Assembly: GCF_004006295.1 (NCBI RefSeq)
Contig: NZ_CP026095.1
Span: 216,001-280,000 of the forward strand
Reading direction: 5' to 3'
DNA: 64,000 bases
From: Peribacillus asahii
GTDB taxonomy: Bacteria > Bacillota > Bacilli > Bacillales > DSM-1321
This document shows, one piece after another, positions 16,179 to 22,416 of this stretch. A program made the position numbers and the translations under genes. The notes below the pieces were generated by a model, which saw only the letters and a list, made by a program, of their open reading frames with translations, had not been told where the DNA came from and did not search any database. Numbering within the stretch: position 1 is the first letter of the stretch; the number at the start of each line of letters is the position of its first letter.

Positions 16179-17150
16179 TTATGCGAGTCTTTGAATGACA
16201 ATAGAGGCACTTACAACAGCAGGACCAGAACCAGACGGCTGATTATTTAAAGTAGTTCCGCCATCGATGTTAATTAAAGTGAGTATTTCTCCTGCCGCTA
16301 AAGTTGTAATCACTTGTCCTGGATATGATTGGTCGCCTGAACCGGAACCATAATTCGAACCTGCAATTTGGCCAGTTAGATTGGAGGATAATGCGAATGC
16401 GGAAGTTCCTTGTTGAGGGAATACCTCCCAGGTAATGAGATAGGTTCCAGCTTGGTTAATTGTAATAGGAGCTGTTCCTGGTACATGTGTAACAAATCCA
16501 GGTGTATTGCCAGGGAAGTTTGTATTAAAAGTAACTGCTCCAGCTGCAGGTACAGATTGTTGGGTTGTATCGTAAATGAAGGCAAATCCAGAAACTGCTG
16601 CACCCGTAGCGCCAGTGTTACCAGTGTTACCAGTAGGACCAGTGTTACCAGTAGGACCAGTGTTACCAGTAGGACCAGTGTTACCAGTAGGACCAGTGTT
16701 ACCGGTAGGGCCAGTGTTACCAGTAGGACCAGTGTTACCAGTAGGACCAGTGTTACCAGTAGGACCAGTGTTACCAGTAGGACCAGTGTTACCGGTAGGG
16801 CCAGTGTTACCAGTAGGGCCAGTGTTACCAGTAGGACCAGTGTTACCAGTAGGACCAGTGTTACCAGTAGGGCCAGTGTTACCAGTAGGGCCAGTGTTAC
16901 CAGTAGGACCAGTGTTACCAGTAGGGCCAGTGTTACCAGTAGGACCAGTGTTACCAGTAGGACCGGTGTTACCAGTAGCACCAGTGGCAGTATTTACAGT
17001 CACTTTGACTATTTGATCAACATGTTGACTTTGCTTAGCTTTACATTCACATTTGCTATGTCCACAATCTTTACATTTTTTATCTTTACATTTGCATTTA
17101 TCATGATCGCATTTTTTACACTTTTTATGTTTATCTTTGTCTTTACCCAA
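16179..17150 (-). CDS. Collagen-like spore-surface protein 1 (Cys-rich N-terminus, BclA/C1q-like head)
   Basis: The 323-aa protein has three parts. Residues 1-40 are Lys/Cys-rich with repeated CxxC and CxC ([28 protein letters not shown]). Residues about 55-180 are perfect Gly-X-Y triplets, mostly the hexapeptide GNTGPT, encoded by an 18-bp repeat. The last 140 residues form a beta-rich head ([31 protein letters not shown]) like the C1q/TNF-type head of BclA. Thr-rich triplets are typical O-glycosylation sites in exosporium collagens. There is no signal peptide and no BclA-type targeting motif; the Cys/Lys tail may cross-link it. Start TTG 17148-17150 is preceded by AAAGAGGTG. Confidence 0.88.
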
Positions 17151-17181
17151 TTTATTTTCACCTCTTTCCCTTAACTAATAT

Positions 17182-17190
17182 TAGGATATG
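17182..17190 (-). promoter_or_regulatory. Possible sigma-K -10 box of collagen-like gene 1
   Basis: On the minus strand CATATCCTA fits the sigma-K -10 consensus CATANNNTA and lies about 32 bases before the start codon. A -35 AC at the right distance is not clear, so this is weaker than the other two sites. Confidence 0.35.
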
Positions 17191-17337
17191 AATTGAAAAT
17201 AAATTAGATTGGACAGGTATCCTAAAATATAGAAAATTTCGCTTTTTAACGAATTATATTATTTATAGATAATAATAGATCTTTCTCTAAAATTACTTTT
17301 ATCTATCTACTCTTAAACTTAAAAATAGGGGATAAAT

Positions 17338-17550
17338 TCAATATCTTATTGGATTAGCTTTATAACATACTTTCAGCTGTTCAATAGTACATAATTTTTT
17401 CACCAGTTTTCTTAAGGGGTTTGTTGTATTAGGGATTATTCGAAAATATCTTGGCTCCTTTCCGAATGTAGCTCTAGTTTGATTTGTGTAGTAATTTAAT
17501 CTACCCCAATTAACCTGCGAAATTATGAGTAAGGGGCTAGTTTCGTTCAC
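17338..17550 (-). pseudogene. IS110-type transposase fragment
   Basis: A 70-codon frame contains RIIPNTTNPLRKLVKKL and LKVCYKANPIRY. These resemble the N-terminal region of IS110-family transposases, where N-x-LRK...L and VCYEAGPTGY are usual. It has no good start site and is cut off on both sides; the rest of the element is absent. I take it as a relic. Together with the IS4-type relic at 19.4-20.0 kb it shows past mobile-element activity among the collagen genes. Confidence 0.5.
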
Positions 17551-17640
17551 GATAACTTTATTTACATAAGATAGGATCTGACTTGGTAATAAGAAAAGAA
17601 GGTAATAAAAATAGGCAGATAGCTATCGGTCTTTGTCCAA

Positions 17641-19169: not shown

Positions 19170-19440
19170 AGTTAGCTAGATGATTGGAGAATTTTGATTA
19201 ACTATATCAGAGCGACGGCTCAATCAAGTTTAATGAATCCGTTATACAGATCATAAAAAAGGTCACTGTATGTAAGTTGAACGATGCAAACCATATTCTT
19301 TGGGCTTTATTCTTATTACCGTCCCTGTTTGGCTGCATACAATCATTATTAACTTCTAAATGAAAATATCCTAATAGCATATCATCTATGAGAATTCCTT
19401 TTACAGTAAAAATGATCCTGCCATCAGAGTTCATCAACAC

Positions 19441-20018
19441 ATACCCAATAAGCGAAGATGAACAGGTTTATGTCTTAGTTGATAGTTGGTATACGAGTAA
19501 AAAGCTAATAGAAACTTGTTATAAAAAAGAGGTTCATCTTATCGGTAGTTTATAGATGGACTGGGCATTAAAATATTCCGACTTTATCTCAATTTATCTA
19601 AAATCAACAGACCTTCACCCAGTTACCGTAGATAGCCATCTGAGCAATAACGGATATGTCAAAGTCTTATTACATTGGGGAACAAGTTTGAGTCGAGCAA
19701 AACATCATTTCGTCTTCTTTGTACAGATAGCAGCCTGAGTTTCGTGACTATTCTGAGCTATTATAATGTGCGTTGGAACATCGAAACTGGATACCCATTA
19801 TTGCAAGGAGTTACTTTGATTTGACGAATACCAACTTTTTTCACACAAAGGGATTAAACATTTTTGGTGTATTAAGTTCTGAACCTACAACTATCTAGAG
19901 TAGCAACATCAAGAATGACAACCGGAACTCACTTGAACAATTGGTGATGTGGTTCGTCGTATATGAACAAGCATTATCGAAAAAAACGCTTTTGGATGTG
20001 CTGAAAGACCCAAGATAG
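19441..20018 (+). pseudogene. Degraded IS4-type transposase
   Basis: Three fragments of a DDE transposase appear in order but in different frames. The first is VYVLVDSWYTSKKLIETCYKKEVHLIGSL (about 19466-19554). The second spans about 19580-19690 (SDFISIYLKST, NGYVKVLLHWG). The third is SLSFVTILSYYNVRWNIETG near 19733-19793, which carries the Y-x2-R-x3-E signature of IS4-family enzymes. A tail, EQLVMWFVVYEQALSKKTLLDVLKD, ends near 20018. Stops and frameshifts throughout show it is dead. No terminal inverted repeats or target duplication could be placed. It separates collagen-like genes 2 and 3. Confidence 0.65.
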
Positions 20019-20176
20019 GCAATTTAAAAATTTCTCAATTGATAGATGTAATATGTATGCCCTTTTTAGGGATATTGCTAAAAATACAAGAGTCGAGTTA
20101 TATAAAATAGGATTTTATCTAGTAACAAGAAAAGAAGATAATAAAAATAGACAGAGGGCTATCGCTTTTTGTCCAA

Positions 20177-20204
20177 ACATTTATAATTTCAAACTCATAG
20201 AATA
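20177..20204 (+). promoter_or_regulatory. Sigma-K-type promoter of collagen-like gene 3
   Basis: AC (20177-20178), 17 bases, then CATAGAATA (20196-20204) has the same spacing and almost the same sequence as the site ahead of gene 2. It lies about 31 bases before the TTG start at 20236. Confidence 0.6.
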
Positions 20205-20235
20205 TCTAAGTTCATGAAAGGGAGTGAGATATCTA

Positions 20236-22416
20236 TTGGGAAAAGATAAAAAATGCTCAAAATGCGGACATAGTAAATGTGAATGTAAATCTGAGCAAAT
20301 ACAAAAGGTAAATCAAAGAGTGGAAATAGATGGATTTAAAGTTCGAGCAACGGGTAACACGGGTCCAACGGGTCCAACGGGTCCAACGGGTCCAACAGGT
20401 CCAACGGGTAACACAGGAAATACAGGTCCAACGGGTAACACAGGAAATACAGGTCCAACGGGTAACACAGGAAATACAGGTCCAACGGGTAACACAGGAA
20501 ATACAGGTCCAACGGGTAACACAGGAAATACAGGTCCAACGGGTAACACAGGAAATACAGGTCCAACGGGTAACACAGGAAATACAGGTCCAACGGGTAA
20601 CACAGGAAATACAGGTCCAACGGGTAACACAGGAAATACAGGTCCAACGGGTAACACAGGAAATACAGGTCCAACGGGTAACACAGGAAATACAGGTCCA
20701 ACGGGTAACACAGGAAATACAGGTCCAACGGGTAACACAGGAAATACAGGTCCAACGGGTAACACAGGAAATACAGGTCCAACGGGTAACACAGGAAACA
20801 CAGGCCCAACGGGTAACACAGGAAACACAGGCCCAACGGGTAACACAGGAAACACAGGCCCAACGGGTAACACAGGAAACACAGGCCCAACAGGAGATAC
20901 AGGTCCAACGGGCAATACAGGAAACACAGGTCCAACGGGCAATACAGGAAACACGGGTCCAACGGGTAACACAGGAAACACGGGTCCAACGGGTAACACA
21001 GGAAACACAGGCCCAACGGGTAACACAGGAAACACAGGCCCAACAGGAGATACAGGTCCAACGGGCAATACAGGAAACACAGGTCCAACGGGCAATACAG
21101 GAAACACGGGTCCAACGGGTAACACAGGAAACACGGGTCCAACGGGTAACACAGGAAACACGGGTCCAACGGGTAACACAGGAAACACAGGCCCAACAGG
21201 AGATACAGGTCCAACGGGCAATACAGGAAACACGGGTCCAACGGGTAACACAGGAAACACAGGCCCAACAGGAAACACAGGTCCAACGGGTAACACAGGA
21301 AACACAGGCCCGACAGGAGACACAGGAGTAGCAGGAGCAGCAGGGGCAACAGGAAATACAGGTCCAACAGGAAATACAGGCCCAACAGGAAACACAGGCC
21401 CAACAGGAAACACAGGTCCAACAGGAAACACAGGTCCAACGGGTAACACAGGAAACACAGGCCCGACAGGAGACACAGGAGTAGCAGGAGCAGCAGGGGC
21501 AACAGGAAATACAGGACCAACAGGAAATACAGGTCCAACAGGAAATACAGGCCCAACAGGAGACACAGGTCCAACGGGTAACACAGGAGCAACAGGAGAC
21601 ACAGGCCCAACAGGAGACACAGGTCCAACGGGTAACACAGGAGCAACAGGAGACACAGGTCCAACGGGCAACACAGGAAATACGGGTCCAACAGGAGCAA
21701 CGGGTCCAACAGGAGACACAGGAGCAACGGGAGCAACAGGAGCAACAGGAGACACAGGTCCAACGGGAGCAACGGGAGCAACGGGAGCAACGGGAGCAAC
21801 GGGAGCAACGGGAGCAACGGGAGCAACGGGAGCGACAGGAGCAGCAGGAGCAACGGGAGCAGCAGGAGTAGCAGGAGCGACAGGAGCGACAGGAGCAACA
21901 GGAGCGGCAGGGGCTGGAGCTATAATTCCACTAGCATCCGGTACTCCAAATGCGCTGTCTACTATTGTAGGCGGGCTAGTTGATACCGGGGCTATTATTG
22001 GATTTGGAGAATCTATCCCGAATGTAAGTTTAGGAGCAGGAACAATAAATCTTCAAGGTTTGGTGAATCTTGCATTTTCAGTCCCTCGAAATGGAACGAT
22101 TACCTCATTAGCTGGCTTCTTTAGTACAACAGCAGCAGTAACTCTTAACCCTGCTGTAACAGCAACAATTCAAGCACAAGTATGGAGTTCAACTTCAACA
22201 TCAAACATTTTCACCCCAATTCCTGGCGCTGTTGTAACATTAGCACCATCACTTACTGGAGTAGTTAATATTGGTACTATTAGCAGTGGTACTTCGACTG
22301 TAAATATACCGGTAACTGCCGGAGAGCGTTTAATAATGGTCTTTTCTGTAACGTCTCCAGCTGGTCCGGCATCTGTTGTTACTGGAGTTGCAAGTGCAGG
22401 TATCGGAATTAGTTAA
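20236..22416 (+). CDS. Large collagen-like spore-surface protein 3 (Cys-rich N-terminus, BclB-type head)
   Basis: I place the start at TTG 20236 ([17 protein letters not shown]), matching genes 1 and 2, with GGGAG 12 bases upstream; GTG 20224 overlaps the ribosome site. About 525 residues of Gly-X-Y follow. First comes a long array of the nonapeptide GNTGNTGPT from a near-perfect 27-bp repeat. Mixed GDTGPT and GVAGAAGAT blocks come next, then GAT triplets. The last 160 residues ([30 protein letters not shown], [19 protein letters not shown]) match the BclB-type exosporium C-terminal domain. With 726 aa it is the largest of the three. It is expected on the spore surface, probably glycosylated on Thr. 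Confidence 0.88.
20350..21310 (+). repeat. 27-bp tandem repeat array within collagen-like gene 3
   Basis: Consecutive 27-bp units encode GNTGNTGPT. The first dozen or more are identical at the DNA level; later ones show synonymous GGT/GGC and ACA/ACG changes and occasional GDT inserts. Perfect identity implies recent expansion and likely length variation between strains. Confidence 0.85.

Follow-up and report, generated by a model that had tools for sequence, protein, structure and literature searches.

How are collagen-like filaments held on a spore when their proteins lack the leader of the BclA-type exosporium proteins? This question is raised by three genes of Peribacillus asahii, located at positions 16179 to 22416 of the 64,000-nucleotide stretch analysed here (the window; positions 216,001 to 280,000 of contig NZ_CP026095.1), which encode collagen-like proteins with a common lysine-rich, cysteine-bearing N-terminus, the Cys module, and three different C-terminal heads. 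The answer that we regard as likely is that they form spore-surface filaments for which the Cys module would serve as a portable anchor. Judged by analogy of position, the module is probably an undescribed spore-surface anchor, occupying the position that a leader peptide or four-Cys linker has in the anchors of the Bacillus cereus group.

All three proteins open with MGKDK and share the N-terminal pattern GKDK...KC...CGHSKCxCK, followed by a Q/V-rich strand, a Gly-X-Thr stalk and a head. Gene 1 lies on the minus strand (16179..17150, TTG start; delimited by its open reading frame and tandem repeat), while genes 2 and 3 are read from the plus strand. In gene 1, alignment with genes 2 and 3 and with protein P0001 places two tandem Cys units at 17040..17129, the first being the variant CDHDKC; next come the linker strand (16983..17039), which has a similar counterpart in most relatives, a stalk of 43 triplets that also matches Pfam Collagen (16596..16982) and the head (16182..16595). 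Gene 3 (20236..22416, TTG start) has one Cys unit (20245-20289), a stalk of 173 triplets (20353-21909) and a BclB-type head (21910-22413). Gene 2 falls into two parts. The first (17700..18275) contains a GTG start, one Cys unit (17709-17753), the linker and Gly-X-Thr stalk in frame 0; the second (18317..19093) continues the stalk in another frame and ends in a head (18713-19090) with its stop at 19093. Thr occupies the Y position in 42 of the 43 triplets of gene 1 and 165 of the 173 of gene 3, and the stalk DNA has periods of 18 and 27 nt, in agreement with the 6- and 9-residue units of the original prediction. The collagen model PF01391 passed its cut-off in every one of the three genes, and in gene 2 it did so on both parts. 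The three-gene family first proposed from this DNA thus stands as to its shared N-terminus, stalks and three heads, except that the assembly splits gene 2 between two frames.

The unit of the module reads C-x2-C-G-H-x2-C-x-C, with a cysteine spacing of C-x2-C-x4-C-x-C. A search for the N-terminus in front of collagen elsewhere, as originally suggested, found it again in relatives: 64 perfect units were counted in 27 of 28 proteins, three of the sequences being incomplete (L027, L034, L036) and the protein of G758 scoring none since its open frame starts far upstream of its module. Of 68 matches to CxxC-x(2-8)-CxC, 65 have four residues between the pairs. Among the perfect units, which were chosen for the fixed cysteine spacing, 58 of 64 have Gly directly after the second Cys and 49 of 64 have His at the next position, and Lys or Arg stands before the first Cys in 62 of 64. 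Because it recurs in relatives with fixed cysteine spacing, the module is not a chance pattern. The unit number reaches six in G029 and G033, the latter with a partial seventh, and in all members read but one the module precedes collagen, mostly with a strand-like linker between.

No known domain was found to account for this N-terminus. For five N-termini no Pfam or NCBIfam model scored above chance even at E 10, the lone zinc-ribbon match (E 6.7) being meaningless; no paper was found for the motif letters, and none of the open-licence titles and abstracts listed in the searches describes the module. In none of the three window proteins did an NCBIfam scan at E up to 0.1 list the exosporium leader TIGR03720; the scan used translations from residue 2 (gene 1), residue 1 (gene 2) and residue 3 (gene 3). 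This is consistent with the earlier claim that the Cys/Lys N-terminus takes the place of the BclA-type leader, and it sets the window proteins apart from the BclA/BclB nap proteins, with which they share the collagen stalk and, in gene 3, the head.

The main argument for an anchor role is positional: in relatives the module occupies the site of the anchor of two published systems (PMC11952670 and PMC12921279). In Bacillus thuringiensis, F-Anchor, composed of a leader, collagen and DUF4183, is described as using its leader to hold F-ENA on the exosporium (PMC11952670). A relative in G029 likewise joins short collagen to DUF4183 (75.9 bits against a cut-off of 25.1), but six Cys units replace the ExsF-binding leader and lead into the collagen without a Q/V strand; the window genes carry other heads. 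On the same contig, a 94-residue DUF4183 protein begins with MPIIKPF, which comes close to the motif M-P-x-x-x-P-x given for the F-ENA hook (PMC11952670), and a frame joining Spo0E-like and DUF4183 sequence (L089 14816-15148) lies directly upstream of the module gene. In the second system, Ena1C anchors S-ENA in B. paranthracis, and its Pro-rich N-terminal linker with four Cys has been proposed to couple to a coat receptor described as unidentified (PMC12921279). A relative in G021 resembles it in having a Cys-bearing extension, here two units and the strand, before a PF13157 Enas domain (37.6 bits against 22), with no collagen, and in adjoining two Enas genes; the order on one strand is CotD, module-Enas, Enas, Enas. 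It differs from Ena1C as described in PMC12921279 in its two C-x2-C-x4-C-x-C units and in gene orientation. From these positions we infer, by analogy, that the window proteins are located on the spore, that the module would anchor them, and that its cysteines may bind metal or form cross-links, as the original prediction had supposed.

A further known protein bears comparison. AGE80398.1 is described in PMC11952670 as having collagen, a C1q head and a Cys-rich N-terminus with no exosporium leader, as here, but with five Cys and a CC motif, whereas the units of the module contain no CC motif; the two were compared by description. Side observations concern Enas genes outside the module family. 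The window genome contains an opposed pair of Enas (PF13157) genes lacking the Cys module (G000:C1:1756564-1757338; L045, L082), and in two other Peribacillus genomes, G032 (L046) and G022 (L050), an Enas gene adjoins a collagen gene whose N-terminus is short and bears Cys; at L046 this N-terminus includes a CC motif, as in the published L-BclA arrangement.

The heads agree with, and extend, what had been claimed. That of gene 1 is a C1q/TNF jellyroll of the F-BclA type, matching PDB 9h38 in phmmer (E 2.8e-11) and Foldseek (TM 0.84, 34% identity). F-BclA is a fibre-tip protein and is described as joining the F-ENA fibre like a fibre subunit (PMC11952670), whereas gene 1 has two Cys units. The head of gene 3, and of gene 3 only, is BclB-related (TIGR03721, 172.1 bits against a cut-off of 93.15). 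For gene 2, whose head had been left unassigned, a structure model (pLDDT 94.6) and its fold matches point to a TNF/C1q-like jellyroll. Head exchange, also predicted, is indicated at the locus itself: genes 2 and 3 are identical at 207 of 247 bases (83.8%) over promoter, start and N-terminus, whereas their head DNA aligns no better than shuffled sequence (score 19, shuffled mean 19.6). Furthermore, when a gene-2-type head of G031 was used as a protein database query, 16 proteins were found. P0002, 97% identical to this head, carries one Cys unit, while P0003, P0004 and P0005, with heads 90-91% identical to the query, carry other N-termini; those of P0003 and P0005 are alike, that of P0004 differs from both, and all are Cys-rich but lack the C-x2-C-x4-C-x-C unit. 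That near-identical heads sit on different N-termini supports, at the level of sequence, a modular family with swapped heads.

Late-sporulation promoters for the module genes are supported by a shared upstream box. CATANNNTA, which we take to match the -10 consensus of sigma-K, the late-sporulation sigma factor, occurs within 80 bp of the start in 16 of 20 distinct upstream regions, always at 37-41 bp; Markov resampling gave a mean of 0.66 and a maximum of 4 in 1000 resamplings. CATANNNTA together with a YCCA(A) block upstream of CATANNNT was found in 16 of the 20 regions, against a resampled mean of 0.095, and CATANNNT lies within 120 bp in 18. In the window, sigma-K-like -10 boxes stand 40 bp from the start of all three genes, as CATATCCTA for gene 1 (17182..17190, minus strand) and as CATAGAATA for gene 2 (17660..17668) and gene 3 (20196..20204), both on the plus strand; the -35 element was assessed only by eye. 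These upstream regions come from related genes and do not represent 20 independent events. Identical upstream regions were counted once, L034 was dropped because its start is unreadable, the later finds G130, G526, G556, G624 and G758 are excluded, and starts were picked by a script that prefers a codon after a purine-rich stretch. Only two regions are from outside Peribacillus, of which that of G347 fits and that of G227 fits only partly. Unusually, 17 of the 20 module genes share TTG as their start codon. For the ena genes, PMC12921279 considers control by sigma-K likely.

A mechanism is proposed in which genes 1 to 3, gene 2 if its frame is whole, would encode filaments of the spore surface that the mother cell produces at a late stage of sporulation. 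At the C-terminus, the head would trimerise, nucleate the collagen triple helix and face outward as a binding tip, and the Gly-X-Thr stalk, probably O-glycosylated, would serve as a spacer. The lysine-rich Cys module with its Q/V strand would form the portable anchor within the exosporium or outer coat, for which disulfides with a Cys-rich layer protein are the most likely means, possibly after metal-assisted folding, and the number of units may tune the strength of attachment. In relatives the same module would anchor other appendage parts, namely F-Anchor-type DUF4183 and Ena1C-type rings.

The same cysteines may be explained in other ways. The module may be an N-terminal staple, in which disulfides within the trimer, or a metal, register and lock the three collagen chains while attachment occurs elsewhere. 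Its usual place before collagen and linker would suit this role, but in G021 it stands on an Ena ring domain without collagen, and the unit number varies, for which a simple staple has no need; we consider a staple unlikely, if well worth keeping in view. Alternatively, a tandem zinc knuckle could provide a structural zinc (or copper) site that acts as a stiff rod or metal store on the spore with no covalent link. The CxxC and CxC pairs, the frequent His and the regular spacing would fit such a site, and the best PDB profile matches to the module are ribosomal proteins L37e, which we take to be zinc-ribbon proteins, although these matches are not significant (E 0.08). Against it, no significant match to any zinc domain was found, and spore coats are largely built by disulfides; a metal site as the whole explanation is accordingly held to be doubtful, though not far-fetched.

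Ordinary BclA-type nap proteins of the exosporium, with a diverged leader docking on ExsF, would have the same plan of short N-terminus, collagen and globular head, but the TIGR03720 result given above speaks against them, and by eye the module is unlike the Pro-rich leader described in PMC11952670, making this explanation improbable. Scl-type collagen adhesins on the surface of vegetative cells are a still more remote explanation. Gene 3 does exceed the cut-off of NF038329 (SclB; 343.8 against 325 bits), but the best stretch of this match is the collagen repeats, LPXTG is absent from the three C-termini and the upstream boxes are of sporulation type, so that vegetative adhesins are hardly credible here. 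As a separate observation, this NCBIfam model for an LPXTG adhesin may misname spore collagens.

Several points weigh against the anchor reading. Three-frame translation ends the collagen of gene 2 in its first frame at 18275 and resumes it in another from 18317, across an A8 tract and a scrambled repeat (18276..18316, plus strand), so that, as assembled, no single protein joins its N-terminus to its head; the cause may be an error of sequencing or assembly, but also decay of the gene or phase variation. Neither DUF4183 nor Enas (PF13157) was listed for the window's own proteins in the Pfam scan. The F-ENA-like gene of G029 is about 3.6 kb from the module gene and not beside it, a slight objection, and the G021 module gene is on the same strand as its Enas neighbours, unlike ena1C, described as opposite to ena1B (PMC12921279). 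CATANNNTA is missing from four of the 20 upstream regions, and two of them, those of the G021 Ena fusion and one G031 gene, have no CATANNNT within 120 bp either. The module is patchy, 27 of 36 genomes of the genus having no match. Finally, genome-wide searches with TIGR03720 had no match in sets of 1, 397 and 398 genomes, nor in any of 14 controls; as the controls were silent, absence of the leader system from the window genome cannot be read from them. Beside the break in gene 2, it was observed that a module gene of P. loiseleuriae (G010; L086 6125-7656) is likewise broken in its collagen, a separate downstream frame reading by eye as a BclB-type head.

Where the module occurs was surveyed at several levels. 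A 14-row profile (E up to 0.01) detected it in nine of the 36 genus genomes, one match (G030, a 37-residue frame) being probably chance. In the order sample it was found in 7 of 397 genomes, four of them in the window's genus, and in 4 of 135 genera; in the class sample (Bacilli) it was found in 7 of 398 genomes, including the window's own, and in 6 of 146 genera, one of these genomes (G648, L097) not being confirmed on reading. A contig search gave three loci, all in G010, G012 and G029. Six module genes lie on one 158-kb contig of G031, and at least one is present on plasmids in each of the Peribacillus strains RS7 and R9-11. A tblastn search of plasmids with the gene 1 N-terminus gave no match, though blastn found a Peribacillus plasmid gene, and the low-complexity filter may hide the module. 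Among 5.8 billion proteins, phmmer region searches brought up a single relative for gene 1 and, for gene 3, no relative at all; phmmer thus finds this family poorly. Phage origin was considered and rejected, since a four-row query on viral contigs returned 70 pattern-matching stretches, none confirmed as a relative. A side observation concerns an open frame of 2989 residues (L090 6325-15291) with one Cys unit, about 893 Gly-X-Y triplets and short non-collagen inserts near its start.

The surroundings of the genes were also examined. A spore coat protein with a Coat F domain (15396..16037, plus strand; PF07875, 61.3 bits) adjoins gene 1 in convergent orientation. Downstream of the three genes are sugar-nucleotide genes and a family-2 glycosyltransferase (24858..26093, plus strand; PF00535), a candidate for the enzyme that would glycosylate the Thr-rich stalks. 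Of 11 relative loci examined, 4 have a TPR-repeat glycosyltransferase of family 2 close to a module gene, which it adjoins in L086, L087 and L088 and from which it lies about 5 kb off in L081; that of L088 is related to the window's enzyme (22% identity, E 5e-17). With glycosyltransferases near module genes, O-glycosylation of the stalks is plausible. A further open reading frame (29124-30371) has about 18 copies of a 42-nt unit (29324-30091) and would encode a long, regular, coiled-coil-like repeat protein.

As to the layer in which the module would be held, CotZ/ExsY (PF10612) was not detected in G000, G010, G012, G021, G029, G031, G032, G033 and G227, a B. subtilis control being positive, and was present in the module-bearing G130 and G347, that is, in 2 of 11 module genomes tested. 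In the genus it was found in 2 of 36 genomes and undetected in 34. The module therefore neither needs nor excludes a CotZ/ExsY layer, and in the eight Peribacillus module genomes read, in which CotZ/ExsY was undetected, any Cys-rich partner in the layer would be another protein.

A wider reading is offered tentatively, its probability falling somewhat short of even: the module may be a general spore-surface plug across Bacilli and plasmids, replacing the ExsF-binding leader and the Ena1C linker, with one common receptor in coat or exosporium for nap filaments, F-ENA and S-ENA, also in species where CotZ/ExsY is undetectable (9 of the 11 module genomes). Outside the Bacillus cereus group, in our judgement, little is known of how spores hold their appendages and naps. 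One unnamed module before three kinds of filament part would give a direct handle on this question, as a short tag to fuse, mutate and pull down, and it may also serve as a display tag for non-pathogenic spores.

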